Part shown: one piece after another, positions 1,605-45,159 of the stretch
Numbering within the stretch: the stretch's first letter is position 1
How the letters are laid out: every line of letters begins with the position of its first letter
Notes under the pieces: model-generated
Told to the model about the DNA's origin: nothing
The model's database searches: none
What the model saw: the letters and a program-made list of their open reading frames with translations, nothing else
NCBI GenBank assembly: GCA_021770845.1
Contig: JAETQF010000003.1
Span: 62,001-126,000, forward strand
Reading direction: 5' to 3'
Source: Oscillospiraceae bacterium
GTDB taxonomy: Bacteria > Bacillota > Clostridia > Oscillospirales > Oscillospiraceae
Length of the DNA stretch: 64,000 bases
Translations under genes and position numbers: made by a program

Positions 1605-1644
1605 TTTTTCCGACAGCCAAGACCGGGATCGGCCTTGGCTGCTC

Positions 1645-1697
1645 GTTACTTTTTCTCGAGAGAAAAAGTAACCAAAAAGAGCTTGAAGCTCGCTGAC
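1645..1697 (+). repeat. Dispersed hairpin repeat, copy 1 (CTCGAG loop)
   Basis: Two 12-nt arms (GTTACTTTTTCT and AGAAAAAGTAAC, 1645-1672) enclose a CGAG loop. They are followed by an AAAAAGAGCTTG segment ending GCTGAC. A second copy of the same 53-nt length lies at 44750-44802 on the other strand. The arms differ by a paired change (A-T here, C-G there), which keeps the stem intact. Both copies sit just downstream of a gene in the same orientation, here the S41 protease. A role as a 3'-end or termination element is inferred. Confidence 0.7.
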
Positions 1698-1784
1698 GAT
1701 AAGTGTCCGGCGACATACGTTTACGCCCGGTGACGGACGGCGGATGTGTGCGGGAAGCATTTTGATTTTAGGAGGGGCGGTTGT

Positions 1785-2372
1785 ATGTCTGTTCTGCTCC
1801 ACATCTGCTGCGCCCCCTGCTCCGTGGGCTGTATCAAGCTGCTGCGGGAGGAGGGGGTGGAGCCCGTCGGGTTCTGGTATAACCCCAATATCCACCCCTT
1901 CCAGGAGTACAAGGCCCGCCGGGACACCCTGCGGCAGTACGCCCAGGACATCGGCCTGGAGCTGCGGGAGGAGGATTTCTACGGCCTGCGGCAGTTCACC
2001 GCCGCCGTGGCTCAGGACAGCGACCACCGCTGCGGCTACTGCTACGCCTGCCGGATGGAGCGCACCGCCCAGTACGCGGCGGAGCACGGCTTTGCACGCT
2101 TTACCACCACCCTGCTGGTGTCTCCCTACCAGAACCGGGAGCTGATCTGCGCCACCGGGGCGCAGATGGGGGAGCGGTACGGGGTGGAGTTTGTCCCCTA
2201 TGACTTCCGCCCCCGCTTCCAGGAGGGGCAGGAGGAGGCCAGGGCGCTGGGCCTCTATATGCAGAAATACTGCGGCTGTGTGTACAGCGAGGAGGATCGG
2301 TTCTCCAACCGCCGCAAAAAGGAGCTGCACAAGCTCCACAAGGCCCAGGGGAGGGAGAATACCCAATGTTGA
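1785..2372 (+). CDS. queH: Epoxyqueuosine reductase QueH
   Basis: 195 aa. QueH reduces epoxyqueuosine to queuosine in the wobble position of GUN-anticodon tRNAs, replacing the cobalamin enzyme QueG. The start is the ATG at 1785, eight bases after AGGAGGGG; an in-frame start 39 bases upstream has no ribosome binding site. The N-terminal HICCAPC and the CGYCYACR motif provide the Cys residues that bind the Fe-S cluster and second metal in this family; a further CGC follows near the C-terminus. The length is normal. The stop overlaps the rlmD start, so the two RNA-modification genes are translationally coupled. A queT transporter is also present at 30031-30561. Confidence 0.9.
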   Translation: MSVLLHICCAPCSVGCIKLLREEGVEPVGFWYNPNIHPFQEYKARRDTLRQYAQDIGLELREEDFYGLRQFTAAVAQDSDHRCGYCYACRMERTAQYAAEHGFARFTTTLLVSPYQNRELICATGAQMGERYGVEFVPYDFRPRFQEGQEEARALGLYMQKYCGCVYSEEDRFSNRRKKELHKLHKAQGRENTQC

Positions 2373-3985
2373 AGGAGGGCAAGAGATACCCCGCCGTTAT
2401 CGAGGGCTATGCCAGCGGCGGCGAGGGGGTGGCCCGGATCGACGGCGTGGCGGTGTTTGTCAAGGGGGCCCTCCGGGGGGAGCGGGGGGACGTGAGGATT
2501 GAGCACGTGGGCCGCAGCGCCGCCTGGGGACACATGGAGAAGCTGCTGGAGCCTTCCCCTTTCCGGGTGGAGCCGGACTGTCCCTATTACGGTCAGTGCG
2601 GCGGGTGCCAGTTCCGGCATATGACCTACGCCGAGGAGCTGGAGGCCAAGCGGCAGCGGGTGGAGGACGCCCTGCGGCGGATCGGCGGCGTGGATCTCCC
2701 GGTTTCTGTGATACACGGGGCGGAAAATACCCTGCGTTATCGAAATAAGGTGCAGTTCCCCATCGGGGACGGGGCGGTGGGCTACTACCGGGGGGGCACC
2801 CATCAGGTGGTGGACATCGCCGACTGCCTGCTCCAGCCGGAGGCGGACACCGCCTGCCGCGCCGCTTTCCAGAGCTGGATGGAGCGGTTCCGCGTCCCGG
2901 CCTATGACGAGCGCACGGGGAAGGGGCTGCTGCGGCACCTGTTCCTGCGCACCAACCGGGCGGGGGAGGCGCTGTGCTGCGTGGTGGCCAACGGGCGGAC
3001 GCTTCCCCACGAGGGGGAGCTGGCGGCGGCCTTGCGGGAGGCCGCGCCCGGGCTGGCGGGGGTGGTGCTGTCCGTCAATACCCGGAAAACCAACGTGATT
3101 CTGGGCGGGGAGTACCGCACCCTCTGGGGCCGGGACTGGCTGGAGGAGGAGCTGTGCGGCCACCGGTTCCGGCTGTCGGTGCCCTCCTTCTTCCAGGTGA
3201 ACCGGGCGCAGACCGAGGTGCTGTACCGCCGGGCGCTGGACTTCGCCGCCCTCACCGGGACAGAGACGGTGGTGGAGCTGTACTGCGGCATCGGCACCAT
3301 CTCCCTGGCCATGGCGGAGAGGGCCGGGCGGGTCATCGGGGTGGAGGTGGTGCCCCAGGCGGTGGCGGACGCCAAGGAGAACGCCCGGCGGAACGGGCTG
3401 GCGGACAGGACGGAGTTCTACTGCGGGGACGCCGGGGCGCTGGCGGCGAAGCTGGAGCGGGAGGGCGTCCGCCCGGATGTGGTGGTGGTGGATCCGCCCC
3501 GGAAGGGGCTGGCCCCCGAAGTGGTGGAGGCCATCGGCCGCATGGGGCCGGAGCGGGTGGTGTACGTGTCCTGCGACCCGGCCACCCTGGCCCGGGACGT
3601 GGGGCGGTTCGGGGCGCTGGGCTACGGGGCAGTGGGGGCGGAGGCGGTGGATCTGTTTCCGCGGACGGCCCATGTGGAGACGGTGGTTCTTCTTTCCAAG
3701 GGAGAAATCGACTCGCAGAAGGTGCGGGTGGAGTTCTCCCTAGAAGATATGGATATGTCCGACTTCAAGAAGGGCGCGACCTACAGTGAAATCAAGGCAT
3801 ATGTGTTAGAAAAATTTGAGCTGAAGGTGTCCAACTTGTATATCTCACAGGTCAAGCGTAAGTGTGGGTTGGAGGTTGGTGAAAGCTATAACCGCCCCAA
3901 AGGTGAAGAACAAAAAGTGCCGCAATGTCCACAGGAAAAAGAAAAAGCAATTTTGGCAGCACTGGAACATTTTCGGATGATTTAG
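2366..3985 (+). CDS. rlmD: 23S rRNA (uracil-C5) methyltransferase, RlmD/RumA type, with IME-derived tail
   Basis: 539 aa as it stands. SAM-dependent formation of m5U in 23S rRNA. In order: N-terminal TRAM domain; 4Fe-4S motif CPYYGQCGGCQ (C-x5-C-x2-C); SAM loop ELYCGIGTISLAMA; VVDPPRKGL; catalytic-Cys motif YVSCDPATLARD; and the usual family end HVETV. At that point (3677-3685, GAGACGGTG) the host gene is interrupted. The last 99 residues (from VLLSKGEIDS) are AT-richer and come from the integrated element. Joining codons up to 3685 to 16016-16042 restores a 448-aa protein ending YLLHQKRT, a normal length for the family. The domain core is intact, so the enzyme is probably active. Whether the new tail alters function is unknown. 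The start overlaps the queH stop. Confidence 0.9.
   Translation: MLKEGKRYPAVIEGYASGGEGVARIDGVAVFVKGALRGERGDVRIEHVGRSAAWGHMEKLLEPSPFRVEPDCPYYGQCGGCQFRHMTYAEELEAKRQRVEDALRRIGGVDLPVSVIHGAENTLRYRNKVQFPIGDGAVGYYRGGTHQVVDIADCLLQPEADTACRAAFQSWMERFRVPAYDERTGKGLLRHLFLRTNRAGEALCCVVANGRTLPHEGELAAALREAAPGLAGVVLSVNTRKTNVILGGEYRTLWGRDWLEEELCGHRFRLSVPSFFQVNRAQTEVLYRRALDFAALTGTETVVELYCGIGTISLAMAERAGRVIGVEVVPQAVADAKENARRNGLADRTEFYCGDAGALAAKLEREGVRPDVVVVDPPRKGLAPEVVEAIGRMGPERVVYVSCDPATLARDVGRFGALGYGAVGAEAVDLFPRTAHVETVVLLSKGEIDSQKVRVEFSLEDMDMSDFKKGATYSEIKAYVLEKFELKVSNLYISQVKRKCGLEVGESYNRPKGEEQKVPQCPQEKEKAILAALEHFRMI
3677..3685 (+). repeat. Left attachment-site core of the IME (attL)
   Basis: GAGACGGTG, read as E-T-V in frame with rlmD. 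The identical 9-mer occurs at 16007-16015, in frame with the recombinase. It marks the likely crossover core used by the element's serine recombinase. Confidence 0.75.
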
Positions 3986-4008
3986 ATAATTGGAAAGTAG
4001 GTTCTAAA

Positions 4009-5109
4009 ATGGACAGCACCTTGATAAACACATTTCGCAATGAAGTCAATGACCAGGACCTGGTTCTACAAATGTATCATAGCCGTGATGGAAAAGCTTT
4101 GTGGAATATTATATGCTCTGCCATGGACTGGATTGATGTCGTCGTTGGTGAAATTGATGTCCACAAACTTTTGCGAGGGAATGATAATAAATCCAGCATC
4201 CATTTTATTACATTTATTTCTTGCGCAGATGTATTGTGGGAAGCGATTCAGCAATTGCACCGTGTATTTTTTTGCACAGATAGTATTCCATTTGCTGATG
4301 ATAGTTCCGTATTTAAAAACAAATTATTTCCAGCAACTGACAACGAATATTTCAAAACAATACGAGCTTGTTTTGCCGCTCACCCAATAAATCTAAGTGA
4401 TAATTTTAGTGGCACAGGAAAAAAAGAACGTAGGTATGCCAGTTGGTCTGGTGGCGGATTTGGTAATGGTGATTTTTCTGTATTTTTATATAGCAATCAA
4501 GTGAATGAGAAACCCGTTCCTTTGGATATCTATTTTGATGAATTGATCACTTTTTCTCAAAAACGGTATGACTATTTGTATACCATAATAGATGAAATGA
4601 ATCGGCAAAAAAGAACTTATCTAACTGAGTGGTGCAGCAAAAAGATTCCTCAAAATAAAAATCCTTTAACACAAATAGAAATATTGATCGAGGAAGTTTC
4701 TTATAGATATTACTCTCATGACTATTATAATTATGTGCTAAAAAAACTTCAGATTATTTTTTCGACAACCATCACGGCTCCCAAGAATAAATTACTAGTC
4801 GAAAAATATAGAGCAGCACTTATGCCAGAAATCAAGGAGATTTACGAGAATTTGCAAAATATGATTTCTAAGGAACTTCAAAGCGAAGCAGATGTAAATG
4901 ATTCGTACCCATTTGTCTGCCAATATGCCTTCTCAAAATTGAGCGATGCCGTATATGGTGATGGACATCCTTCACTTATCAATGCTGATGCATTTCAATC
5001 TCACCTGCAAGAGTTGGTTGACTTTTCAGAAATTTTTTCTGTAGAAGAGCTTTACACAGTTGTTTGTGCAGGATTTTTTGCCGCCAACGCAAAAGTAAGC
5101 TATAAATGA
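4009..5109 (+). CDS. Uncharacterised IME cargo protein with an RxxxxxHP motif
   Basis: 366 aa, AT-rich, no family recognised. I chose the ATG at 4009 because GGAAAG lies about 11 bases upstream; an in-frame ATG at 3925 would overlap the rlmD tail and lacks a good site. No signal peptide or membrane segment is evident. Residues around 120 read TIRACFAAHPINL, which matches the R-x(4-6)-H spacing of HEPN ribonucleases. The protein is otherwise rich in helices and aromatic residues. It is the first gene inside the left end of the element, converges on the DUF4238 gene, and is followed by a hairpin terminator. A nucleic-acid or defence role is inferred only from the motif and setting. Confidence 0.6.
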   Translation: MDSTLINTFRNEVNDQDLVLQMYHSRDGKALWNIICSAMDWIDVVVGEIDVHKLLRGNDNKSSIHFITFISCADVLWEAIQQLHRVFFCTDSIPFADDSSVFKNKLFPATDNEYFKTIRACFAAHPINLSDNFSGTGKKERRYASWSGGGFGNGDFSVFLYSNQVNEKPVPLDIYFDELITFSQKRYDYLYTIIDEMNRQKRTYLTEWCSKKIPQNKNPLTQIEILIEEVSYRYYSHDYYNYVLKKLQIIFSTTITAPKNKLLVEKYRAALMPEIKEIYENLQNMISKELQSEADVNDSYPFVCQYAFSKLSDAVYGDGHPSLINADAFQSHLQELVDFSEIFSVEELYTVVCAGFFAANAKVSYK

Positions 5110-5180
5110 CAATTGGACTGTGTATGATAACTATAGGTCAGGGGACTGCTTCTCTGCGCGGACTCTCAGATGAAATCGGG

Positions 5181-5220
5181 AAAGCAGATGCACCAACTTA
5201 AATGGCTGGGCATCTGCTTT
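5181..5220 (+). terminator. Hairpin terminator between convergent IME genes
   Basis: Perfect 11-bp arms AAAGCAGATGC (5181-5191) and GCATCTGCTTT (5210-5220), followed by GTTTTCCC. It lies between the 366-aa gene and the DUF4238 gene, which converge, and may serve both. The rest of 5110-5305 shows nothing further. Confidence 0.6.
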
Positions 5221-5305
5221 GTTTTCCCGTATTCTATTTCTATCCCGGGTGGGAATTTCAGCGTATGAGATGCGTATCAGTATAGTAAGGATAAACAGGA
5301 ACCTT

Positions 5306-6247
5306 TTAATCTCTCTGCTTCACCCACACGGGTGCCAGTTTTCTCATAGCATATTGCTTTAACACATCTTCCGACCGCGCAAATGCGTGTTGAGAACACT
5401 GCTCGATTTGCTTCCGATTTATCGTGGATATAAACCGAACTTCCCTATCAGAATCAAGATCAACAAGGCAGCAATCTTTTTCTGAAAAGGCTCCAAAAGT
5501 AAGCTCTGGGTGAAGTACGCAAAGTAACAACTTTGGTGAAATCGGATAATAAACAGCCGTACCTATTTTTAGAAGCCCATTCGCAAAAGGACGGGCATTG
5601 CCCGTTATGTTGTTCACTAGCATAACAGGGTTATCGCTGGTGATAAATTCCAAACCACCTAGGATTCTGTAAAAAACAAAATCATGATTACAGATTATTT
5701 CTGTATACCGTGTAATTCGTTTTGAATCCAACGCTAAATCCATAGATGTCCGTTTGAAATAGTAATCATCATTTTCGTAAGCTTGCAATAGCGCCTTCTG
5801 CTTTTCACTTAGTGGACCAAACTTTTCTTTGGTTTTCTTTAGTGTGTCTGGTAAATAGCTCTGGTAGAGTTTGCGTTCATAATCACGGGTCTGTTTACCT
5901 CGAAGCATTTGCATAACCATAATGGCTGCAAGCTGTACTTTTTCTGAATCATTTAGAATAACCGTACCATTGCGAACTAAAATATTGCTTTGAGAAATAA
6001 TCTTTGGAATAAGTTCTCCCATCTGTGGCTCTACGCCGTTTGCATAGATATGTTCCCAGCAATATTGATCGCTCATCTTTTCCAATGTATAAAAATCATT
6101 TTCTGCACCTACAGCGCGAATTCCTGTGGAAAATATCTTTTGACTATATTTATCCATAACCGCAATAAGTTTGGATGCATTACAAAAACTCCTTAAATAC
6201 ACCTGGGGTACATGATGTTGTCTGATGGGATTATCCTTTTTGCTAAT
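5306..6247 (-). CDS. DUF4238 domain protein, apparent ATT start
   Basis: 313 aa from the proposed start. The N-terminus reads SKKDNPIRQHHVPQVYLRSF; the HxVPQxYLRxF sequence is the hallmark of DUF4238. No ATG, GTG or TTG precedes this signature in frame: the frame is closed by TAA at 6250-6248, and the first codon after it is ATT (6247-6245). That ATT sits 8 bases after GGAGG (6260-6256), an ideal spacing. A GTG at 6202 is in frame but cuts into the signature and lacks a ribosome site. Either ATT is used or an ATG has mutated. DUF4238 proteins are uncharacterised and often sit in defence or mobile regions. Confidence 0.75.
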   Translation of the reverse strand: MSKKDNPIRQHHVPQVYLRSFCNASKLIAVMDKYSQKIFSTGIRAVGAENDFYTLEKMSDQYCWEHIYANGVEPQMGELIPKIISQSNILVRNGTVILNDSEKVQLAAIMVMQMLRGKQTRDYERKLYQSYLPDTLKKTKEKFGPLSEKQKALLQAYENDDYYFKRTSMDLALDSKRITRYTEIICNHDFVFYRILGGLEFITSDNPVMLVNNITGNARPFANGLLKIGTAVYYPISPKLLLCVLHPELTFGAFSEKDCCLVDLDSDREVRFISTINRKQIEQCSQHAFARSEDVLKQYAMRKLAPVWVKQRD

Positions 6248-6283
6248 TTATCTCGCCTCCTACATGGACATCGTCTACCCCAA

Positions 6284-7156
6284 TCACTCCACTAATGGGT
6301 AGTCAAAAAAATCAAGTAAGTTGTCTAAGATGAAAAACAATTGAATACAATCTCGTTTCAAAACAGGCCGTTGATTCATGCCATGGTCTATGTAGTTGCG
6401 GTTGATAATGGCAGGTTCATTTTCGAAATTCTTTCCATTGGCAAAGACAGTTTCAAGACAGGAAAAAAGATTTGCAAACCGCAGTAATGAGAAAAAACCA
6501 TAACGACCATTTTCTTGTTCATATTGCGTTTTCAATTTTTTCGCTGCTCTTTCACCTGCTGGACGATAACTTCCTATCACGGCCTGTTTTCTTATCAGCT
6601 TGGCATCGATCATTCCAAACAGCATAAGCGCACATGGTTTATACTGACGATTTTGGTAGCAGAAAATAGCTGAATCTAAATCTGTTTGTCTTAACTTCTT
6701 AGAATGTAAACGATCAAAGAGTTTCGCTATTTCCAGATTGGAATGATATGGCTTTATGCGCCTATTCGCGTCTGCAACATTTTGCGGCGGTGTATTATAG
6801 AATTTCATTGGCGTAATTCCTATCCATGACCAACCACACTTTCCCCATGCGCAGTAACTTTCGGTAAGCCGTTTTCTGCGTTCCTCCGGAAAACTAGAAG
6901 CCTGAATTAATGTTGCTGTTTCCGCAATATATGTAGATATTGATGATTGAAGGGCTTGCATTACTGACTCTACTGAAGCGGGAGATACCACATCTAATGA
7001 AGCTGTGGACATCACAGGAACAAGCTCACTTGCAGCACATATGAATTCCTGCTGAGTTTGCATTGCGATGGATGATAATTGGATGATCTCCTTGATTCTT
7101 TCAGGAGATAGATCAGCATTTGCATTCATATCAGAAAACTCGTCATGTTCTTTCAT
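6284..7156 (-). CDS. HEPN-like protein coupled to the MmeI-like enzyme
   Basis: 290 aa. Its ATG overlaps the stop of the MmeI-like gene by 4 bases (ATGA), so it is translationally coupled and probably acts with it. The first 90 residues look helical and polar; the middle has a KCGWSWIG segment. The C-terminus reads NRNYIDHGMNQRPVLKRDC, where R-N-Y-I-D-H fits the R-x4-H motif of HEPN ribonucleases and the following hydrophobic helix fits that fold. No membrane segment or signal peptide. I know of no described type IIL system with such a partner. The HEPN reading rests on a short motif and helical pattern and needs a profile search. Confidence 0.6.
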   Translation of the reverse strand: MKEHDEFSDMNANADLSPERIKEIIQLSSIAMQTQQEFICAASELVPVMSTASLDVVSPASVESVMQALQSSISTYIAETATLIQASSFPEERRKRLTESYCAWGKCGWSWIGITPMKFYNTPPQNVADANRRIKPYHSNLEIAKLFDRLHSKKLRQTDLDSAIFCYQNRQYKPCALMLFGMIDAKLIRKQAVIGSYRPAGERAAKKLKTQYEQENGRYGFFSLLRFANLFSCLETVFANGKNFENEPAIINRNYIDHGMNQRPVLKRDCIQLFFILDNLLDFFDYPLVE

Positions 7157-9930
7157 GAGGACTTCCTCTCAGTCAGCATTTGATACATCCTCATCAACTC
7201 CGCCACACAAGCCGGTTCGGAGTTCAGCTTTCCCCAAAAGCCGTAAGCCTGCATCACAGCCTTGTCGTTCTGCTGGTGGGCCTTTCGCAGTTCCGGGGGC
7301 ATGGTGGTTTCATCGTAGAGATCAGCCAGGGAGCTGTCCGGGTAAAGGGCGCGGGCGTCGAGAATGGCCTGGGCGGTCTGCTCAATTTTGGCCTTCTGCT
7401 GATCCGTAAGGGTAGGCCATGGGAAGTTGTTATAAACAACATCTTTGGAATAGCGGTAATCGCTTTTTAGCCGTCCGCAGACAGCGCGCATCCAGGCCAT
7501 ATGCACGTTAGAAGTTAGAACACCAAAATGATAAAGGCTTGCATTTGGAATGGTTATCACAAGATTTGTTGCAATCGTGTCTTTGTTTAGAAAACCAATT
7601 GGCACATATCGCCGCCGTTCGGAGGAAACGGCAGGAACCACGATGAAAGTATCTGGATTATTGATTTCTCGAAATTGTGTTGGACGCTCTGCGAGTTTTC
7701 GCCTCCCCGCATCGGGCGCGTTTTCGCGGTCAGCTTTGCAGGCTTCTACTCGTTGAAGCACTAACGGCATCTTCCGCAACTCCGCAGGACTGATTCCAAC
7801 GAGCCATAAACACCAGCGTTTCTTGTTGTTTATGAACTCAGCAGAACCAACCAACTTTTTGATATACGGTAGTGCCATTGGCTCTTTTGCGATAAACTCG
7901 TCATAGTCGTCAGCCTCAATAATCAAATGTCCGCCATCAGCAGGACGGTTGCCTGTTGTCATTAAAGGAACATCACAAAGCGGTTTATTTCTGTTTTCAA
8001 TAAAAACAATGGGAGCGTCAATCAAGTAAGCGTTGATATTTTCAACGACCTGCACTCTCTCAGATGTAAACAGCCGCCGTTCTTGACTGTTTGAGGCAAT
8101 ACTAAAGCCGACGATCACACAATGCACATGAGCCTTTAAGCTGGCCTCGCTGTCCCAGCGGAATGTTCGATGGGCAAAATCAATATGAATCTCAAACCGA
8201 TCATATAACGGTTTCCAAACACCTACCACCTGTTCCCCTTGGGTGATAGAGTTGGTAGACACAAAAGCGGTTCGGCTGTTTGCCCCTTGCATAAACTCTG
8301 CTGCCTTGAAATACCAGCCGGAAACATAGTCAATTTTTCCTGTTGCTTTGTAAGGCTTGCCTTTCTCATCAATGTAGATAGAAAGTATATCCTCTTTTTG
8401 CTCCTTGCTCTGAAAAGAGTATCCTACAAAGGGCGGATTACCCATGATGTAATTCAATTCATATTTGGGAATAACACTCCCCCAATCTACCCGCAGAGCG
8501 TTGGCTTCGGTAATGTTGGCATAGGATTTCAGCGGCAGGAAATCCAAGGTCATGTGTACTACGTCCTCGGTTTCCTTCATCATCTGACTTTCAGCGATCC
8601 ACAGCGCGGTCTTTGCCACCGTCACGGCAAAATCATTGATTTCAATACCGTAGAATTGACCGATTGACACCTGGATAGGGTTTCCCATATCCAACATGAT
8701 TTGTCCCTTATGGAGCAAGGAAATTGTTTCGTTTTCCAGCCGCCGCAGGGAGATGTAAGTTTCCGTCAGGAAGTTGCCGGAACCACAGGCCGGGTCCAGA
8801 AATTTCAGCCCTGCCAGTTTCCGCTGAAACGCCTCTAACTTTGCTTTGCGGGTGCGTTCCACCGTGACCGTTGCAATCTCCGCGAACTCCGCTTTCAGCC
8901 CATCCAGAAACAGCGGGTCAATCAGCTTGTGAATGTTCTCAATGCTGGTGTAGTGCATTCCGCCGGAGCGCCGGGTTTCCGGGTTCAGCGTACTTTCAAA
9001 GACAGCACCGAAAATCGTGGGACTGATAGCGGACCAGTCAAAGTCCTCGCTTGCTTTCCGCAGAATCAGGTCAATGATGGTTTCATCCAGCCGGGGAATC
9101 ACGATGTTTTCATCTGCGAACAAACCGCCGTTGACATAGGGAAACGCGGCAAGGTCCTCGTCCATGTACGGGTCCCGATCCTCCGGCTTTGTATCCAGTA
9201 CTTTGAACAGGTCAATAATGGCGCGGCGGGCGTCCCGTTCATGCCCCTGCAAGTAGTCATGGAACATACTCCGGTTTCCAAAAATGCCAGCGTCCTCCGC
9301 ATACAAGCAGAACACCAGCCGGACACACAGCTTGTTCAGGCTTTTCAGCGTTTCCGGGTCGCTGGGGTCCTTGTACTGTTTTAAGAGCGCGTCATAGAGT
9401 ACCCCCACCAGCTCGCCAGCTTGCAGGGAGATTTCCATTTCCTTTTTGATATGCTCGCTGCCAGTGTCAATCAGGAATTGCAGACGGTGGAACTCCTTCT
9501 CCAAGTCTGCCAGCTTGAGGACTTCCGGCTCATCATTGGGGCGGTTCATGTCGTGGATACGGAACTCCTGGAAGTTGCAGACCACAATCCAGCGGGGGAC
9601 CTGATTATAGGGCAGATACCCGGCATAGCGGCGGGCTTGCTGGAAGGGAGTTAACATGGCCCCGTCCGACTGCTTGTAGCCCCGTGACAGGTCAATGTCC
9701 CGCCCCTTCTGCTCGATCAGGACACGGGTGGATTCGATATAGCCGTCAATGAAGCTGGTATGGTCCAGCTTCACGGGGACCTCAAAAGAAATGGCTGTGG
9801 AACCATCAACGCCAAAAACCTTTGTCAGCAGTTCGATCCAAAACCGCTGTGTCTCCTGCTTTTCGTCGCCCCGACCATTCCAATCCGCTGCGAATCGGGC
9901 AGCGGCAGTGCGTTTTTCCATATCAGTCAT
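7153..9930 (-). CDS. MmeI-like type IIL restriction-modification enzyme
   Basis: 925 aa, close to MmeI (919 aa). A single protein carries both DNA cleavage and adenine methylation. The N-terminal nuclease region has FIDGYIESTRVLIEQKG (D ... ExK) around residues 60-80. A helical spacer follows, then a gamma-class methyltransferase with motif I FLDPACGSGNFL near 390 and motif IV NPPFVG near 510, then a target-recognition region and a C-terminal domain. The start is the ATG at 9930, six bases after GGAGGG; an upstream in-frame extension of 28 codons has no ribosome site. It lies 80 bases downstream of the SLOG gene and overlaps the HEPN-like gene. All motifs look intact, so it is probably active; its recognition sequence cannot be read here. 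Confidence 0.88.
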   Translation of the reverse strand: MTDMEKRTAAARFAADWNGRGDEKQETQRFWIELLTKVFGVDGSTAISFEVPVKLDHTSFIDGYIESTRVLIEQKGRDIDLSRGYKQSDGAMLTPFQQARRYAGYLPYNQVPRWIVVCNFQEFRIHDMNRPNDEPEVLKLADLEKEFHRLQFLIDTGSEHIKKEMEISLQAGELVGVLYDALLKQYKDPSDPETLKSLNKLCVRLVFCLYAEDAGIFGNRSMFHDYLQGHERDARRAIIDLFKVLDTKPEDRDPYMDEDLAAFPYVNGGLFADENIVIPRLDETIIDLILRKASEDFDWSAISPTIFGAVFESTLNPETRRSGGMHYTSIENIHKLIDPLFLDGLKAEFAEIATVTVERTRKAKLEAFQRKLAGLKFLDPACGSGNFLTETYISLRRLENETISLLHKGQIMLDMGNPIQVSIGQFYGIEINDFAVTVAKTALWIAESQMMKETEDVVHMTLDFLPLKSYANITEANALRVDWGSVIPKYELNYIMGNPPFVGYSFQSKEQKEDILSIYIDEKGKPYKATGKIDYVSGWYFKAAEFMQGANSRTAFVSTNSITQGEQVVGVWKPLYDRFEIHIDFAHRTFRWDSEASLKAHVHCVIVGFSIASNSQERRLFTSERVQVVENINAYLIDAPIVFIENRNKPLCDVPLMTTGNRPADGGHLIIEADDYDEFIAKEPMALPYIKKLVGSAEFINNKKRWCLWLVGISPAELRKMPLVLQRVEACKADRENAPDAGRRKLAERPTQFREINNPDTFIVVPAVSSERRRYVPIGFLNKDTIATNLVITIPNASLYHFGVLTSNVHMAWMRAVCGRLKSDYRYSKDVVYNNFPWPTLTDQQKAKIEQTAQAILDARALYPDSSLADLYDETTMPPELRKAHQQNDKAVMQAYGFWGKLNSEPACVAELMRMYQMLTERKSS

Positions 9931-10010
9931 AGTGTTCCCTCCGTAGAGATTATCCTTTGACTTAGTGTAACACATTTTGTAGAAAAATGGGAGGCCCTTT
10001 TTAAAGGGAT

Positions 10011-10541
10011 TCAAGCATTTCGGTTTGCGACTGTTTCCGTACGAGGGTCAAGCACGATGATCTTCCGTCCCAGCTTTTGCGCATATCGCACGGTCATTGC
10101 CGTTCCACCCCGCCGTTCGCCGTTGTAAACGGCCAGCAGGCAGGCGGTATGATCGACCAGGTAGCGGTTTCGTTTCAGCATACAGTTCTTGCTGTACTCC
10201 CGGCTCACATATATAACCTCATCTGCCCGCCCCAAAATAGAAATATAAAGTTCCCGCGCCGAAGCCGACCACCCGTCCGTCTGCCCTTCACAGGGCAGGA
10301 CACAGTGGAGCTTCAGCGCGGGATTTTCTTTTTTCAAGGCCAGAACAGCCAGTGCCGCCCAGGTGTCGGTCCCTTCTGCCATACCCGTGAAGAAATCTGT
10401 ATATCCGGCATCTACCAGCTTGGCAATTTCTCCGGCAAGGGCTTTTTTCAAAGCGACGCACCTAGTGTCCGCTTCGTTGTAGCCCCAGGGAAGCTTCCTC
10501 GGACGGTGACCTGTGAACGCACAGCATCTTTCAAACATCAT
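10011..10541 (-). CDS. SLOG family protein (DUF1273/YpsA-like)
   Basis: 176 aa. It begins CCAFTGHRP and contains DFFTGMAEGTDTWAA, the nucleotide-binding pattern of the SLOG Rossmann fold found in YpsA/DUF1273 proteins. SLOG proteins bind nucleotide-derived ligands and recur in mobile elements and defence loci; this one's role is unknown. GGAGG lies 7 bases before the ATG at 10541. It is divergent from the small XRE gene, with an inverted repeat between them, and upstream of the MmeI-like gene on the same strand. It may form an operon with it. Confidence 0.82.
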   Translation of the reverse strand: MMFERCCAFTGHRPRKLPWGYNEADTRCVALKKALAGEIAKLVDAGYTDFFTGMAEGTDTWAALAVLALKKENPALKLHCVLPCEGQTDGWSASARELYISILGRADEVIYVSREYSKNCMLKRNRYLVDHTACLLAVYNGERRGGTAMTVRYAQKLGRKIIVLDPRTETVANRNA

Positions 10542-10567
10542 AGTTTTGCCTCCGCCTCAATTTAGAT

Positions 10568-10610
10568 ATGGGGGTTATATCCCCTTAACATTGGAGATTA
10601 TAACCCCCAT
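10568..10610. promoter_or_regulatory. Candidate operator between divergent SLOG and XRE genes
   Basis: Perfect 12-bp inverted repeat ATGGGGGTTATA (10568-10579) and TATAACCCCCAT (10599-10610) with a 19-bp spacer. It sits in the short divergent promoter region. Binding by the adjacent XRE protein is inferred. Confidence 0.55.
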
Positions 10611-10639
10611 ACTGAGTGGTGTCAATCGGGGGTGAAGCG

Positions 10640-10846
10640 ATGATTATTTTTGATAAGCTGTGGGATGTTATGAAAGTGAAAGGCGTTTCCACATATCAGC
10701 TGAGAGAAAAGTGTGGTATCGACAGCAAGACCGTTCGGCGGCTGAAAGCCAACGACAACATGGAAACAAAGACACTGAACAAATTGTGTATGGTCCTTGA
10801 TTGCCGTCTGGAAGATATTGCCGAATATGTTCCAGACGAGCGCTAA
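10640..10846 (+). CDS. Small XRE family regulator
   Basis: 68 aa, one Cro/C1-type helix-turn-helix (YQLREKCGIDSKTVRRLK, residues about 17-34), with the short C-terminal tail LEDIAEYVPDE typical of this small family. I chose the ATG at 10640 after GGGGGTGA; a GTG 24 bases upstream is poorer. It is divergent from the SLOG gene and is probably autoregulated through the inverted repeat at 10568-10610. It likely controls IME functions. Confidence 0.85.
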   Translation: MIIFDKLWDVMKVKGVSTYQLREKCGIDSKTVRRLKANDNMETKTLNKLCMVLDCRLEDIAEYVPDER

Positions 10847-11160
10847 CAACTCCACGGCTCTGCGGATGCAGAATCGTGGGGTTGTTAGCATTTTCGGGGC
10901 GGGGTATCCAAGCTGCACTCTGGCAGCATGGACACCCAACGCCCCGAAAATGGAGGGGGAATCCAAAGGGGGGCGGTCCCCCCTTTGGCACACGACTTTC
11001 GGAGAAAGTCTAGTGTGTTATACCTTTTGTCCCGGCTGGCGCAGGAAAGGGGCGGCGCGGTCTGGCGCAGTCACTTTCCCGCACCAGAAAATCAGGCGGC
11101 AGGATGGAGCGAAGCAATCATCCTGCCGCCTGATTTTGGGAGGGACAAAAGGTATATAAA
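10847..11160. repeat. Array of nested inverted repeats, no gene
   Basis: This gene-free stretch holds at least five strong stems. TAACAACTCCACG pairs with CGTGGGGTTGTTA (about 10845-10889). CATTTTCGGGGCG pairs with CGCCCCGAAAATG (about 10889-10952), with further inner pairing. A perfect 10-bp repeat is built on CCAAAGGGGG/CCCCCTTTGG (about 10965-10995). A perfect 18-bp repeat lies at 11088-11105 and 11120-11137. A 15-bp outer pair, TATACCTTTTGTCCC (11020-11034) and GGGACAAAAGGTATA (11142-11156), encloses the last. It could be a structured RNA, a transfer origin, or paired terminators between the two regulators. The remaining bases to 11245 show nothing I recognise. Confidence 0.6.
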
Positions 11161-11245
11161 ACCCCCGTCCCTCGTCTCCCGTCCCGCCGCAGCGGCATTG
11201 GCGGTACCCGAAACGCACCCGTCTGGGTATGCGCTGGGGGAGCGT

Positions 11246-12064
11246 TCAGGTGTCCCCGGTATTATCACCCCTGGGTAGTGTCTCAAAGGCGGACAGTAAC
11301 CCGCCCCGGAGGGCTTCGGCCCCCTCTGCGTTCAGTCCAGCGCCGCTCGCCGTGTGTACAATGGCATCCACGATTTGCTCCGGAGTGATGGCGGTCAGAG
11401 TCACATCCTGATCCTTAGCCAACTCCGCCATCATCTGCTTGACAACCTCGCTTGTGACCGCTTTGGCCGGTTCCAGGTTTGACTCGGCCTCACGCTTTAT
11501 CTCCTTCAGCATGGTCATAAACGTGTTTTGAATCTTCGCCAGCTCTACCTGATGGGGCGGCGACTTGGACAGCTTCACAGCGCGAGCCGCTTCTCTCGCC
11601 ACCTTCTGTCCAAAATCGGACGGGCCAGCGCTCAAAAGAATATCGCCCATGAAATCAAATAGTTCATTCTGCGCGGCCACTCCGGCGGCAAACGTATCAT
11701 CCAGATACTGTGCGATCATGGCGGTCAGTAGCGGAAACCTCGGTTGTTCCAGCAAACGGTTCACCACGTCCACATTGACTCTGCCTGTATAGAGGTTCCG
11801 CGCCGCCTGAGCGGAAAGCCCCAGAGCACCGATTTCATAATTCTTTCGGTCTGGAATATCCGTCAGGCCCAGCAGATAATCTGCGGAAACTTGGAACTCC
11901 CGCGCCAGTGCCGTCAGCACATCACTGCCTACTTTCTGTGTCTGCCCCTTCTCTATGCGTCCCAGCGTGGTGGCGTTGACGCCGACGTTCGCCGCTAATT
12001 CCTCCAAGGTCATGTCCCGCCGTTCCCGGAGTCCGGTGATGCGTCGGCCAATCGTTTCAAGCAT
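11246..12064 (-). CDS. XRE family regulator with long C-terminal region
   Basis: 272 aa. An N-terminal helix-turn-helix (MTLEELAANVGVNATTLGRI) with the usual VSADYLLGLTD after it, then about 170 residues of helical sequence that probably binds a ligand or partner. The ATG at 12064 follows GGGAGGGG; an in-frame extension of 40 codons upstream runs through the inverted repeats and is rejected. It is divergent from the ParB-like gene, with a 13-bp inverted repeat between them. It is probably a repressor of the mobilization genes. Confidence 0.82.
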   Translation of the reverse strand: MLETIGRRITGLRERRDMTLEELAANVGVNATTLGRIEKGQTQKVGSDVLTALAREFQVSADYLLGLTDIPDRKNYEIGALGLSAQAARNLYTGRVNVDVVNRLLEQPRFPLLTAMIAQYLDDTFAAGVAAQNELFDFMGDILLSAGPSDFGQKVAREAARAVKLSKSPPHQVELAKIQNTFMTMLKEIKREAESNLEPAKAVTSEVVKQMMAELAKDQDVTLTAITPEQIVDAIVHTASGAGLNAEGAEALRGGLLSAFETLPRGDNTGDT

Positions 12065-12110
12065 ATCGTCCCCTCCCATCCCGCTGATTTTATCACACCC
12101 CCACCTCAAA

Positions 12111-12154
12111 GGCCAGCCCGGAACCTGCATTTTTGCAGATTTTCCGGGCTGGCC
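12111..12154. promoter_or_regulatory. Inverted repeat in the divergent XRE/ParB-like region
   Basis: Perfect 13-bp arms GGCCAGCCCGGAA (12111-12123) and TTCCGGGCTGGCC (12142-12154) enclose a smaller CTGCA/TGCAG stem. A second hairpin, TTCCGGC/GCCGGAA, follows at 12161-12180. These may act as operator or as terminator. Confidence 0.5.
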
Positions 12155-12258
12155 GTTATTTTCCGGCTTTTCCGCCGGAATCAAGGACTATAGACAATTT
12201 TTCGGTATATTGGGGGCAGGCGGGAAACCGTCAATTCAAATCGGGAGGTATCAAGTAA

Positions 12259-13128
12259 TTGCGTATTCCAATCAGTGAGGTCAAAATCAATTCCGGGCGG
12301 CGGAAGGCTGACCCAACCCATGTCAGCGAGTTGTCCAAAAGTATCGCTGACGTTGGCCTGCTCAATCCAATCACGGTCGACAGCAGCTACACTCTGATCG
12401 CCGGCCTGCACCGGCTGGAAGCGGCGGAGCTGCTGAGTTGGACAGAAGTTGAGTGTACTGTGTGCGATATTGACAGCATACGGGCAGAACTGGCGGAGAT
12501 CGACGAGAATGTGATCCGTAGAAATCTGACGAACACAGAAGTGAGCGGCTTGCTTGCCCGCCGAAAGAAACTCTATGAAACTCTTCACCCGGAAACGATT
12601 GCCCGGAACCGTCCTGGCCATGTGAACAACCACCAGGGTTCGAGCGACAATGTGTCGCTCGAACCCAAAGCGAAATCTTTTGTTGAGGATACCGCCGAAA
12701 AGCTGGGTGTCTCCACTCGGACCGTTGAACGGCACCTGTTTCTGGCCGAACATTTGACACCGAAGGCCAGTGAAATTCTCAAGAAAATGGACAAACAGCC
12801 TCCACGGTGCGAACTGATGAAACTGGCCCGCTTGGAGCCAGACCAGCAGGCCGAGTGTGCCGCACAGCTTCTGTCCGGCAAGATCAAATCGGTGGACACG
12901 TATTTGAAGCAGGGAGAGCCGGAAGCAATCGGGGCGGATACACTCCCGGCCTTTGATACATTTATGGAAAGTTCAAGCCTACTCCTTGACGGGATCAAGC
13001 AGCTTTTCTCACTTTTAGCGGAAAATTCTGGTTTTACTGACAAGCAGAAGTCAACCACCCGGATGCAGGTCGACAAACTGCGTGAGGCGGTGGACACTCT
13101 GACTGCACAGCTTGAGGACGGGCGGTGA
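12259..13128 (+). CDS. ParB/Srx-fold partition-like protein
   Basis: 289 aa. The ParB N-terminal domain is seen in VSELSKSIADVGLLNPITV and IAGLHRLEAAELL. A helix-turn-helix follows at about 130-155 (VEDTAEKLGVSTRTVERHL). The start is TTG at 12259, about 10 bases after GGGAGG. The stop overlaps the start of the relaxase gene, so the two are coupled. In mobile elements such proteins bind DNA near the transfer or partition site. No ParA partner is present, so a role as a transfer or regulatory DNA-binding protein is as likely as partition. Confidence 0.82.
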   Translation: MRIPISEVKINSGRRKADPTHVSELSKSIADVGLLNPITVDSSYTLIAGLHRLEAAELLSWTEVECTVCDIDSIRAELAEIDENVIRRNLTNTEVSGLLARRKKLYETLHPETIARNRPGHVNNHQGSSDNVSLEPKAKSFVEDTAEKLGVSTRTVERHLFLAEHLTPKASEILKKMDKQPPRCELMKLARLEPDQQAECAAQLLSGKIKSVDTYLKQGEPEAIGADTLPAFDTFMESSSLLLDGIKQLFSLLAENSGFTDKQKSTTRMQVDKLREAVDTLTAQLEDGR

Positions 13129-14096
13129 GCACGATGCAGAAGCCGCAATACGCTATCCTCCGATTCGCAAAATATAAGGGGCCGGAAATTGGGCAAATCG
13201 AAGCCCACAACGAACGCACCAAGGAAAAGTACGCCAGTAATCCGGACATCGACGCCAGTCGCAGTCACTTGAATTTTCATCTGATCCAACCTGAGCGGAA
13301 ATATCGCGCCGAAGCTGAGAAGCAGATCGCTGATGCTGGGTGCCGTACTCGCAAGGACAGCGTTCGGGTGGTCGAGGCCTTGGTGACAGCCAGCCCGGAG
13401 TTTTTCAAGGGAAAGAAAAGAGCCGAAGTCCGGGCATTTTTTGAAGAAGCAGTGCGTTTTATTGAGAAATATCAGGGCAAAAGCACGATGATCTCCGCTG
13501 TGGTCCATATGGACGAGAAAACGCCGCATATGCACCTATCCTTTGTCCCTTTGACGAAGGATGGGAGGCTAAGCGCCAAGGACATTGTCGGTAACAAAAA
13601 GAAGCTGACATGGTGGCAGGACAACTTTTGGAAACATATGGTCAGGAAGTATCCTGATCTGGAGCGGGGTGAAAGTGCAAGTGAAACTGGCAGAACACAC
13701 ATCCCGCCCCGGCTGTTCAAGGAGGCGGTACATCTCAACCAGCAGAGGGATATGTTGATGAAACTGCTGGATGAAGTCAATCCCCTCAACGCCAAGAAGA
13801 AAAGCGCCGAGATAGAGGCTTTGCTGGAGCAGTACATCCCCGGTGTGGAGCGAATGCAAACGCAAATGCGGAAGTATGATGCCGCGTATAAAGCACTCCG
13901 GGCCGAGAACGCTGGATTAAAAAAGCAAGTCAATTCCGGCAAGGAGAGTATCAAACGCCAGTTGGAAGTATCTCAGCAGCTCCAGGAGCTGGAAGAACTG
14001 AGACGAACAATAAAAAATATCCCACAGGAGGTTTTAGATGCCTATGCACAGATTTCATCAGTAAAAAAGGAGCAGCCTATTGAAGAAATACTATGA
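13125..14096 (+). CDS. MobV family relaxase (Pre/Mob)
   Basis: 323 aa. The relaxase nicks one strand at the transfer origin and pilots it to a recipient. Conserved motifs are visible: IEAHNERTKEKY near the N-terminus, SHLNFHL near residue 45, and the metal-binding HMDEKTPHMHLSF near residue 128 (HxDExxPHxH). A long coiled-coil-like region follows from about 230. It starts at GTG 13125 overlapping the ParB-like stop, with ATG 13134 as an alternative. With no secretion genes here, transfer must rely on a helper conjugative system. Confidence 0.9.
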   Translation: MSTMQKPQYAILRFAKYKGPEIGQIEAHNERTKEKYASNPDIDASRSHLNFHLIQPERKYRAEAEKQIADAGCRTRKDSVRVVEALVTASPEFFKGKKRAEVRAFFEEAVRFIEKYQGKSTMISAVVHMDEKTPHMHLSFVPLTKDGRLSAKDIVGNKKKLTWWQDNFWKHMVRKYPDLERGESASETGRTHIPPRLFKEAVHLNQQRDMLMKLLDEVNPLNAKKKSAEIEALLEQYIPGVERMQTQMRKYDAAYKALRAENAGLKKQVNSGKESIKRQLEVSQQLQELEELRRTIKNIPQEVLDAYAQISSVKKEQPIEEIL

Positions 14097-14235
14097 TGAT
14101 CCCCAATATAATGCGGCATTTGATCGTTTTATTGATGTGATGACGCAATTGATGCAGAAATACGGCCCTAAATTGCTGGAAAAGCAGTCAGAAAAACAGC
14201 GGGATGACCAAGGTGGTGTGGACCACGCTGCATAG
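14080..14235 (+). CDS. Small IME protein of 51 aa
   Basis: An open frame with TTG start at 14080 after AAAAAAGGAG, overlapping the last codons of the relaxase gene in another frame. The product is charged and probably helical (KKYYDDPQYNAAFDRFIDVM, then QLMQKYGPKLLEKQ). No family recognised. The overlap, ribosome site and amphipathic pattern suggest a real gene coupled to the relaxase. Confidence 0.6.
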   Translation: MKKYYDDPQYNAAFDRFIDVMTQLMQKYGPKLLEKQSEKQRDDQGGVDHAA

Positions 14236-14274
14236 GGTACATATATCATAGTAGACTAAAATTATTCCTATTTC

Positions 14275-14321
14275 CACGTTGCACATTTATTGACAATATG
14301 CTACAATAAATGTGCAACGTG
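14275..14321. promoter_or_regulatory. 18-bp inverted repeat upstream of the serine recombinase
   Basis: Perfect 18-bp arms at 14275-14292 (CACGTTGCACATTTATTG) and 14304-14321, with an 11-nt spacer, followed by GTGTTTTCTT. It could terminate the mobilization operon or be an operator for the recombinase promoter. Confidence 0.55.
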
Positions 14322-14365
14322 TGTTTTCTTGTCAAACTAATCACTAAGGACAGAATGGAGTACCT

Positions 14366-16042
14366 ATGAGAAAGAAACAGACAAAGTGCTATCTCTATAC
14401 ACGGGTGTCTACTTCGATCCAAGTGGATGGCTATAGTTTGGATGCCCAGCGGGAAAAACTACGAAAATATGCAGAGTACGAGGATATGGCAATTGCGGGT
14501 GAGTATTCTGACGAAGGATTTTCGGGTAAGAATATCCAGGGCCGTCTGGAATTTCAGCGGATGCTGAATGACATTCAGGACAACAAAGACGGCGTAGCAT
14601 ATGTGCTGGTATTTAAGTTGTCCCGTTTTGGCAGAAATGCCGCCGATGTGTTAAACTCCTTGCAGTTGATGCAGGATTTCGGAGTTAATCTGATATGCGT
14701 GGAGGATGGCATTGACAGTTCCAAGGACTCCGGCAAGCTGATGATCTCTGTTCTGTCTGCTGTTGCCGAAATAGAACGGGAGAATATTCGGACACAGACG
14801 ATGGCAGGACGGGAGCAGAAGGCCCGGGAGGGAAAGTGGAACGGCGGCTTTGCGCCCTATGGCTACCGCCTTGAAAACGGGAAGATGCTGATCGCCGAGG
14901 ATGAGGTTGATGTGATCCGCGCCATTTATGATCGATATATCCACACGAACGATGGTGTGAGTGGCGTAGCAAAGCACCTTAATAGCCACGGCTATACGAA
15001 AAAACTCCGCCAAAATGGTACGATTCCTGGGTTTTCTGCTAATTTTGTGAAAGATGTTCTGGATAATCCGATTTATATGGGAAAGATTGCTTATGGCAGG
15101 CGAAGAACTGAGAAAAAGCTGGGGACTCGGAACGAGATGCACATTGTAGAGCAATCAGAGTTTCCGATTTACGATGGGCAGCATGAGGCCATTATTTCTG
15201 AGGAAGATTGGAATTTGGCCCATGAAAAGCGGAAGATCAACGCCTACCGGCGGGAGAAAATACATGATCCCAGTCACGCCCATATCCTATCCGGAATTTT
15301 GAAATGTCCCTGCTGCGGCAAGAGCCTATACGGGAATATCTCCAAGGCTCACAGCAAGGACAAAAAGACCAGATACTATTACTATTGCAAAAATACAGTC
15401 ACGCCAACTGGACATAGCTGCACTTTCCGTGTAAACTTAGAGCAGACGGAAATCAACGATATGGTTGCGGCTATTGTATCGGCTATGGTGAATAATCCCC
15501 GTTTCTCTGAGGCTATTCAAGCAAAAATCGGCTCCGCTGTGGATACAGCGGACATGGAAAAGCAACAAGAAACCTTGCAGGCGCAGCTTCGTCAGACGTT
15601 TGGCACAAAATCCAGGCTAGAGCGGCAAATGGACAGCCTAGATGTAGCCGACCCGTATTACGACCGAAAGATTTTGGACTTGCAACGTCGGTATGACGAG
15701 CAGTATGGTAAGATTGAAGAAATCGAAATCCAAATTGACGATCTCCAAAGCAAAATTCGGAGCATCAAACAGGAGAAGATTTCAGGCGACAATATCTATC
15801 GGCTCCTGCTGGTATTCGACCAGGTATATGCCTCCGCCTCCGAAGTGGAACGAAAAGGATTCATGCGGGCATTCCTTGAACGAATAGATTTGTTCCCAGA
15901 GAAACGGAAAGACGGCTGCTGGATCAAGAATATCGTCTTTAACTTCCCTGTTCCTGTCAACGGAAAAGATGTGACCGAATTGCCCTTGGAAAATGAGACA
16001 ACAATTGAGACGGTGTACCTGCTCCACCAGAAAAGGACTTGA
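14366..16042 (+). CDS. Large serine recombinase (IME integrase)
   Basis: 558 aa as integrated. The resolvase domain starts with YLYTRVSTSIQVDGYSLDAQ (nucleophilic Ser in RVSTS). GFSGKNIQGRLEFQRM and KLSRFGRNAADV follow. Then come the recombinase DNA-binding domain (GFAPYGYR, LDNPIYMGKIAYGR), a zinc ribbon (LKCPCCGKSL ... paired Cys) and a coiled-coil region. The final codons cross the right junction: after ETV at 16007-16015, the last eight residues YLLHQKRT belong to the host rlmD end. In the excised circle the frame would continue into 3686-3985, giving a 649-aa protein. It catalyses site-specific integration and excision. Confidence 0.93.
   Translation: MRKKQTKCYLYTRVSTSIQVDGYSLDAQREKLRKYAEYEDMAIAGEYSDEGFSGKNIQGRLEFQRMLNDIQDNKDGVAYVLVFKLSRFGRNAADVLNSLQLMQDFGVNLICVEDGIDSSKDSGKLMISVLSAVAEIERENIRTQTMAGREQKAREGKWNGGFAPYGYRLENGKMLIAEDEVDVIRAIYDRYIHTNDGVSGVAKHLNSHGYTKKLRQNGTIPGFSANFVKDVLDNPIYMGKIAYGRRRTEKKLGTRNEMHIVEQSEFPIYDGQHEAIISEEDWNLAHEKRKINAYRREKIHDPSHAHILSGILKCPCCGKSLYGNISKAHSKDKKTRYYYYCKNTVTPTGHSCTFRVNLEQTEINDMVAAIVSAMVNNPRFSEAIQAKIGSAVDTADMEKQQETLQAQLRQTFGTKSRLERQMDSLDVADPYYDRKILDLQRRYDEQYGKIEEIEIQIDDLQSKIRSIKQEKISGDNIYRLLLVFDQVYASASEVERKGFMRAFLERIDLFPEKRKDGCWIKNIVFNFPVPVNGKDVTELPLENETTIETVYLLHQKRT
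16007..16015 (+). repeat. Right attachment-site core of the IME (attR)
   Basis: GAGACGGTG, identical to 3677-3685 and in frame with the recombinase. The downstream bases TACCTGCTCC and the TGA at 16040-16042 are the original 3' end of rlmD. Confidence 0.75.
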
Positions 16043-16103: not shown

Positions 16104-16967
16104 ATGAAGGCCAAGGTATATTTTACCCGTGAGCTCACCCCGGAAGCCCTGCTCCGGCTGTACGGCGCCCTGGGCGTCCAGCTGCCGGGCAAGGTGGCGG
16201 TCAAGCTCCACTCCGGCGAGCCGGGGAACCAGAACTTCCTCCGCCCCGACTTCTGGAAGCCCATGATCGACAAGGTGGGGGGCACCATCGTGGAGTGCAA
16301 CACCGCCTATGACGGCGGCCGGAACACCACCGCCGCCCACTGGGAGACGATGAAGAAGCACGGCTGGTCGGACGCCGCCGCTGTGGACATCCTGGACGAG
16401 AAGGAGGACATGGAGCTGGCCGTCCCCGGCGGCAAGGTCATCCAGAAGAACTTCGTGGGGGCGAACCTGAAGAACTACGACTCCCTGCTGGTGCTCACCC
16501 ACTTCAAGGGCCACCCCATGGGGGGCTTCGGCGGGTCGCTGAAGAACATCTCCATCGGCCTGGCCTCCTCCCGGGGCAAGCAGTATATCCACGGCGCCGG
16601 CGACATGGACAAGTTCTGGGACTCCGATCACGATGCCTTCCTGGAGTCCATGGCGGACGCCGCCTGGTCCATCCACGATCACTTCAAAGGTAAAGTGGCC
16701 TATCTCAACGTGATGAAGAATATGTCGGTGGACTGCGACTGCTGCGCCGTGGCCGCCGACCCCAAGATCGGGGATATCGGTATGCTGGCCTCCCTGGATC
16801 CGGTGGCGCTGGATCAGGCCTGCCTGGATCTGGTGTACGCCTCCGATGACCCGGGCAAGGCGGATCTCATTGAGCGCATCGAGTCCCTCAACGGCGTCCA
16901 CACCGTGGAGGCCGCCGCCGACCTGGGCATCGGCACCCGGGAGTACGAGCTGGTGACCCTGGACTGA
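16104..16967 (+). CDS. DUF362 domain protein
   Basis: 287 aa. Matches DUF362 proteins: VAVKLHSGEPGNQNFLRPDF, NTAYDGGRNTT, LTHFKGHPMGGFGGSLKN and the CDCC segment near residue 210. These are described as Fe-S centre proteins of unknown function. The usual ferredoxin-type cluster is absent or reduced to the CDCC motif. The ATG at 16104 follows GGAGG at 16091. It is the first host gene right of the IME and converges on mnmA across a terminator. Confidence 0.8.
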   Translation: MKAKVYFTRELTPEALLRLYGALGVQLPGKVAVKLHSGEPGNQNFLRPDFWKPMIDKVGGTIVECNTAYDGGRNTTAAHWETMKKHGWSDAAAVDILDEKEDMELAVPGGKVIQKNFVGANLKNYDSLLVLTHFKGHPMGGFGGSLKNISIGLASSRGKQYIHGAGDMDKFWDSDHDAFLESMADAAWSIHDHFKGKVAYLNVMKNMSVDCDCCAVAADPKIGDIGMLASLDPVALDQACLDLVYASDDPGKADLIERIESLNGVHTVEAAADLGIGTREYELVTLD

Positions 16968-40911: not shown

Positions 40912-41125
40912 GGGCGATCCTCCCTTCCGCTGGGGGCGAATGCGAAATCTGGCCCGCCGCCCCACGTTTTTCCTTATTATAAGGGGAATTCCGGCGGAAT
41001 GTCAAGCCAACCGCCCCGGCCCGGGCGGCTTTCCCGCCAAAAGCGGGCACCCCGCCGCGGAGCCCGCCATAGGATATGGTGCAGGCCGTCCGCGGGGCGG
41101 CCCGCGCGGGAAAGGAGCATCCATT

Positions 41126-43209: not shown

Positions 43210-43246
43210 AAAACCCGCCGCCGGTCAGGAACCGGCGGCGGGTTTT
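43210..43246. terminator. Terminator between feoB and metK
   Basis: Perfect 16-bp arms (43210-43225, 43231-43246) followed by T residues on both strands. Confidence 0.9.
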
Positions 43247-43257
43247 CGTTTAAAAGG

Positions 43258-44439: not shown

Positions 44440-44483
44440 GATGTGTTTCTCCTTTCTGTTTTTGAGGGGAAATGAGGGGGATG

Positions 44484-44512: not shown

Positions 44513-44529
44513 CTGGAGACTCCAGTGCT

Positions 44530-45158: not shown

Positions 45159-45159
45159 G

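Follow-up and report, generated by a model that had tools for sequence, protein, structure and literature searches.

Exchange of gene ends between rumA (=rlmD) and mobile elements has been described before. In streptococcal rumA integrative and conjugative elements (ICEs) with a single serine integrase, the passages of Ambroset et al. (2016; PMC4701971) on these elements report a reciprocal exchange of 3′ parts between rumA and the integrase gene, each of which contains one copy of a 2-21 bp direct repeat; the excised integrase has another C terminus, the replacement alters the reading frame of both proteins, and the authors proposed a functional difference between the two integrase forms. Similarly, van Eijk et al. 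(2015; PMC4320837) reported that movement of CTn5 fused rumA to an element-borne open reading frame (ORF), CD1844A, which resembles the RumA C terminus of another species, and they detected the junctions and a subpopulation with intact rumA by PCR. The tail swap itself is therefore already published (PMC4701971; PMC4320837). As recounted in PMC4701971, phage Mx8 has attP within its integrase gene, and its integration swaps 112 C-terminal residues for 13, lowering activity. In the integration-dependent immunity of mycobacteriophage BPs (PMC4557955), a phage protein is altered upon integration because of where the attachment site lies. Lists of rumA integrative and mobilizable elements (IMEs; PMC5704250 and PMC5357655), prophages adjoining rlmD (PMC12785378), and directionality factors (PMC5814800) form the further background. 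Here we analyzed a 64,000-nucleotide stretch of an Oscillospiraceae bacterium (GenBank assembly GCA_021770845.1, contig JAETQF010000003.1, positions 62,001 to 126,000), hereafter the window, in which an element at 3686-16015, lying between an rlmD-side and a recombinase-side junction, provides RlmD with a 99-residue C-terminal tail.

Our favored reading, to which we assign a probability of about 0.55, is that this tail is a removable recombinase domain that is used in the circle and that integration cuts off and parks on RlmD. In such a mechanism, attP would lie inside the recombinase gene, just ahead of the codons for a last, flexibly linked, and probably helix-turn-helix domain, and the gene in the circle would encode the full 649-aa enzyme. 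By integrating at the E-T-V codons close to the rlmD 3′ terminus, the element would remove the domain from the recombinase, which would gain a short host-encoded end in its place, and the domain would move to RlmD, replacing in kind its last residues (V-L-L-S). We infer that the tailed enzyme functions in the circular state, that its tail is DNA-binding and changes recombinase activity or direction, and that on RlmD the tail is mostly a passenger.

The joins and reading frames were read directly from the window. The 9-mer GAGACGGTG occurs on the forward strand at 3677-3685 and 16007-16015, and both copies encode E-T-V, the first in the frame of rlmD and the second in the frame of the large serine recombinase. 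When rlmD was joined in silico to 16016-16042, it encoded 448 aa ending in HVETVYLLHQKRT with a single, terminal stop; joined to 3686-3985, the recombinase gene encoded 649 aa, again with a single terminal stop, and the remaining two frames of the tail contained 4 and 6 stops. The original prediction, made from the letters alone, had proposed these positions, the in-frame E-T-V in both genes, and both open joins with their lengths, and all were reproduced by our sequence and translation checks. It had also called the element an IME, which the gene content supports: the element has its own recombinase and a Mob_Pre relaxase, and no conjugation machinery occurred among the Pfam matches of the nine other element proteins, two of which had no match. 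PF00239, PF07508, and PF13408 all exceeded their cut-offs in the recombinase, as expected of a large serine recombinase, and the 9-bp direct repeat, with one copy in rlmD and the other in the serine integrase gene, falls within the 2-21 bp of rumA-type elements. The 9-mer by itself is weak evidence, because six copies were observed in the window versus 0.49 expected from shuffles, and when windows of matching sizes were paired at random, 436 of 20000 pairs (~2%) had some 9-mer in common. The two copies were recognized as a true attachment-site pair because G+C steps at both (0.683 to their left, 0.475 in the stretch that they enclose, and 0.667 to their right), because homologous junctions were seen again in genomes G751, G350, G665, and G216, and because loci L226 and L240, which are 99.81% identical over 8458 bp, diverge within the core (GAGAC, then T or G).

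The architecture recurred in other genomes. In G751, G350, G665, and G216, an rlmD-tail fusion is followed by ~13-16 kb of DNA and then by an 82-85% identical recombinase, which in the first three closes with a short peptide after E-T-V. Tandem arrays occur in G216, G471, and G609, where the recombinase continues in frame into a second tail and an rlmD-tail fusion lies upstream. Together with L062, these genomes provide seven loci outside the window at which a tailed rlmD is the left end of an element, as counted among the contigs read that hold both a tailed rlmD and a recombinase of the window lineage. Among 81 recombinase C-terminal ends (3 of 84 matches had no usable end and were dropped), which fell into 74 clusters at 97% identity, 53 clusters were exclusively short-ended, 10 were exclusively long-ended, 3 had both ends, and 8 were without an E-T-V-like core. 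A full tail was present in 10 of the 13 clusters that include long ends, and the others had a 31-residue end (L215; L236/L237) or a truncated tail (L225); one of the three both-end clusters (L215-L217) has the 31-residue end instead of the tail.

Near-identical recombinases with different ends were observed directly. One recombinase of the L226/L240 pair ends in HVETVVGLQRKDT and a stop, and the other carries a 111-residue tail. The G665 recombinase ends in VETVCLLSKKP, that of L213, 99.84% identical to G665 over 3150 bp, ends in VETVVLMSRK, and L125 matches the G665 recombinase at 100% over the first 1878 bp and runs into a tail; its body clusters with the others at at least 97% identity, and its recombinase frame is broken further upstream. 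G350 and L209 form a third short/tailed pair. As judged by sequence, one recombinase body occurs with either a short or a tailed end. L125 was also considered as a circle, given its 100% identity to the G665 element over 1878 bases, and was set aside; it is likelier an array junction because its tail differs from the G665 element's own tail. Tails were also found on recombinases without the core: L065, L106, and L156 each contain two recombinase genes that overlap or are no more than about 15 bases apart (counted up to where the second match starts). In each pair, the first gene carries a tail without a clear E-T-V core and the second has the exchanged end. This arrangement appears to be old because the first recombinases (that of L156 is cut at its start) are only 49-59% identical among themselves.

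The window tail matched nothing better than E 0.02 in Pfam, NCBIfam, and PHROGs; a Pfam scan of 49 tails gave weak matches alone (best E 0.0022, in a single member); and a tail profile run against the sequences of solved structures matched best to ribosomal eS24 (E 0.023). The predicted tail model has helices at 33-44, 50-59, and 83-95, and in the model of a natural tailed recombinase the tail forms a separate three-helix unit beyond a low-confidence linker. This weak model is helix-turn-helix-like, and the tail may be such a domain.

The divergence of the tail followed that of the recombinase. Across nine elements, tail identity correlated with recombinase identity (r 0.85; 0 of 5000 shuffles), and in the eight that also have an RlmD, the coefficient was 0.82 against the recombinase (1 of 5000 shuffles) and -0.10 against RlmD (2927 of 5000 shuffles); six of the nine elements belong to one recombinase clade, and the comparison covered the tail, the recombinase, and RlmD only. 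The tail and the correlated recombinase sit at opposite ends of the integrated element. The RlmD proteins of G350 and G665 are just 42% identical and carry tails that are 96% identical, and when the window element was compared by blastn with the G350 and G665 elements, matches longer than 150 bp were restricted to the recombinase and the tail/attL region. On these alignments, the tail is element-borne, and the element ends travel together. These comparisons argue against the rival that survives best, in which the tail is an RlmD appendage, or a regulator expressed through promoter capture from rlmD upon integration, and the recombinase fusion is a by-product of the core position. We regard it as doubtful, although most tails do sit on RlmD. 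In a scan using one genome per species, which gave 144 relatives, the best 80 comprised 66 RlmD fusions, 4 recombinase fusions, and 10 loci of neither class, mostly short ORFs. Tail relatives were present in 57 of the 391 class genomes. The tail profile search that the original prediction had proposed did find the tail in frame on recombinases, at those 4 loci and at others. Relatives also occurred on plasmids: of the 97 plasmid records that matched a tail, 90 were from Enterococcus, and the E. faecium plasmid pY13 (L127) carries, in a multi-resistance cluster between spw and lsa(E), a short ORF that belongs to a different tail type (HVETCVLLSHKS...).

Selection on the tail bears on the same rival from both sides. 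The median dN/dS was 0.10 over 762 tail pairs with dS of 0.05-1.5, none of them reaching 1 or above; the pairs are not independent, and 4 broken or cut tails and the tails of two other tail types had been excluded beforehand. Tails adjoining RlmD had a median of 0.105 over 218 pairs, as an RlmD appendage would also have; in this set, 35 of 99 tails were labeled "other," mostly because the end of one RlmD query did not coincide with the core, and the labels are superseded by the 80-locus classing. From these ratios, the tails are under purifying selection. Frameshifted or cut tails in L005, L022, and L039, where the RlmD body is open, suggest that RlmD itself does not depend on the tail. Also against this rival, among 29 same-genus RlmD loci (the best 30 loci were kept, and the RlmD genes of G012 and G024 fall outside these counts), only 11 start a tail after H-V-E-T-V, some of these being broken or cut by contig ends; of the 18 without it, 17 end 6-25 residues past E-T-V, and one runs on for 134 unrelated residues.

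Several observations weigh against our favored reading. The predicted attP join of the circle had 0 matches in the window's own assembly. The tailed recombinases that we saw may all be array junctions rather than circles; an array need not yield a tail, since at L208, where two tandem copies of the element type are 88.6% identical over 2.4 kb, both recombinases are short-ended, with E-C-V cores. No exact terminal overlap of 20-399 bases was found in L117, L118, L125, L113, L123, L124, or L126, the last being a partial record. A distant recombinase lineage (L064 and L116; 27-28% identity to the window recombinase) has the same core in another frame, followed by an intact tail, as the RlmD-appendage rival would have it; therefore, the selection that acts on the tail may in part have other sources, such as the RlmD fusion, promoter capture, or passage of tails between lineages in arrays. 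Finally, the exact empty site, that is, an rlmD ending in YLLHQKRT, was not found in any genome examined. In the Anaerococcus prevotii record L116 (conjugative plasmid pAPRE01), the stretch 40377-50667 holds the recombinase of the out-of-frame lineage, two tails, and an RlmD-end-like VDMFP...VETVALLSK, and 57106-58776 holds a recombinase of the in-frame lineage; the arrangement resembles a plasmid-borne array of the rlmD type.

The missing empty site is also among the grounds for another rival, that the right junction is not the plain 3′ end of rlmD, either because of a host-side rearrangement that preceded or followed integration or because the assembly is chimeric near 16016-16027. The left flank is colinear with sister genome G799 at 90.6% over window positions 673-3679, and the right flank at 91.5-96.7%, starting only at 16027, 11 bp beyond the 9-mer. 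The gene at 16107, a putative DUF362 gene, was not found when 0.4 to 12 kb beyond rlmD was read in the other members of the genus that were examined, and the last host codons, QKRT and the stop, extend into its promoter-like region. This gene had been considered as proof of a rearrangement; colinearity of both flanks with G799 reduced that to one option, and the adjacency of rlmD and the 16107 gene may be ancestral, given this colinearity and the fact that the rlmD site of G799 is occupied by a different element, flanked on both sides by contig ends. There, rlmD ends in VLLQRGNS (HVEAIVLLQRGNS) and a stop and runs into that element, whose ORFs are presumably DnaD-like and VirD4-like. In addition, YLLHQKRT has the usual pattern of an RlmD end, and we consider an aberrant right junction unlikely. 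The right flanks of G665, G751, and G350 aligned with nothing in 23 RlmD loci of the G665 genus, one locus of the G751 genus, or the loci of the window genus. In the window's own assembly, the predicted attB join had only a two-mismatch match, inside an unrelated ORF that we take by eye to be glutamate synthase. Of the empty-site check that had been proposed, one half was borne out, with 18 of the 29 same-genus RlmD loci being tail-free, and the other was not, the exact predicted end occurring in no genome examined; the end of the "restored" 448-aa RlmD is a prediction by arithmetic.

That the tail has no protein function and its sequence is kept only as an attP arm beyond the core is highly improbable: the first codons past the core are common to the tails, and in serine recombinases the attP arms are confined to a few tens of bases around the core, but the conserved tail columns are mostly 31-98 codons beyond it, the median dN/dS is as low as given above, and a core-less tail is kept on the first recombinase of L065, L106, and L156.

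The features of the locus are listed in Table 1. The host-encoded part of rlmD matched the rumA model at 394 bits (cut-off, 184). The cargo at 5306-10541 resembles a small defense set, comprising an MmeI-like type IIG enzyme, a YpsA-type SLOG protein, and a DUF4238 protein.

Table 1. Features of the rlmD-integrated element, its flanks in the window, and tandem recombinase genes of related loci
Feature	Position	Strand	Evidence
rlmD (rumA), host-encoded part, 440 codons, end HVETV	2366..3685	+	TIGR00479; G799 colinear 90.6%
attL core repeat GAGACGGTG, E-T-V in rlmD frame	3677..3685	+	
Element-borne 99-residue tail, RlmD-fused when integrated; predicted recombinase end in circle	3686..3985	+	
Cargo ORF, 394 aa, family not found, overlaps tail end	3925..5109	+	Pfam scan
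DUF4238 protein	5306..6202	-	PF14022; PADLOC DUF4238-Pers weak
Cargo ORF, 290 aa, family not found	6284..7156	-	Pfam scan
MmeI-like type IIG restriction-modification enzyme	7153..10014	-	PF20473, PF20466, others; REase_MTase_IIG 1184.9 bits
YpsA-type SLOG protein	10011..10541	-	PF06908; PADLOC ShosA weak
Small Cro/C1-type helix-turn-helix protein	10616..10846	+	PF13443
Helix-turn-helix regulator	11246..12184	-	PF13560, PF01381
ParB-like protein	12259..13128	+	PF02195
Mob_Pre-family relaxase, marks element as mobilizable	13125..14096	+	PF01076, E 1e-53
Large serine recombinase, 558 aa integrated	14366..16042	+	PF00239, PF07508, PF13408; PHROG 95 integrase
attR core repeat GAGACGGTG, E-T-V in recombinase frame	16007..16015	+	
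Host-side end now closing recombinase, YLLHQKRT after core	16016..16042	+	
Right flanking host gene	16107..16967	+	In 29/42 genus genomes; colinear in G799
Tandem recombinase genes	L065 6390-10294; L106 6293-10294; L156 3-3200		

If the tail is indeed a removable recombinase domain, integration could tentatively be viewed as a self-limiting switch, in which a DNA-binding domain is taken from the acting enzyme and stored, translated, on a host RNA methyltransferase; elements with two recombinases would keep a permanently tailed partner, perhaps so that the reaction can be reversed. In its stored form on RlmD, the tail might in addition have a regulatory or directionality function in trans. Control of direction is a central question for serine integrases, which are in wide use for genome writing; a natural family whose integration product always comes without a conserved C-terminal domain would allow directionality to be studied with no separate factor involved. 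The element also offers an origin for the odd ~100-residue extension of some RlmD proteins, namely the left end of such an element, and this extension should therefore not be annotated as part of the methyltransferase.

Compared with known systems, the window element differs from phage BPs as described, in which the altered protein is a repressor and not a recombinase. SCCmec, a serine recombinase (Ccr) element at the 3′ end of the rRNA methyltransferase gene rlmH, has another target gene, and the window recombinase stayed below the Ccr equivalog cut-offs (CcrB, 183.9 of 900 bits; CcrC, 164.5 of 900; CcrA, 120.9 of 700). Mx8 uses a tyrosine integrase, and the account of it in PMC4701971 does not describe a host enzyme that receives a conserved domain. 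CTn5, as reported, is alike in fusing rumA to an element-borne ORF and unlike in being an ICE. The streptococcal ICEs come close, sharing the rumA target and the repeat in both genes; a reciprocal 3′-end exchange like theirs is predicted for the window element, whose integrated state fits it, and the L064/L116 lineage resembles them further in that the frame changes on the recombinase side. No description of the tail as a recombinase domain was found in the literature searched. Relative to these ICEs as they are described, the window element resides in a non-streptococcal host and differs in that the frame is kept on both sides, that the exchanged piece is a conserved domain, and that this domain diverges in step with the recombinase.

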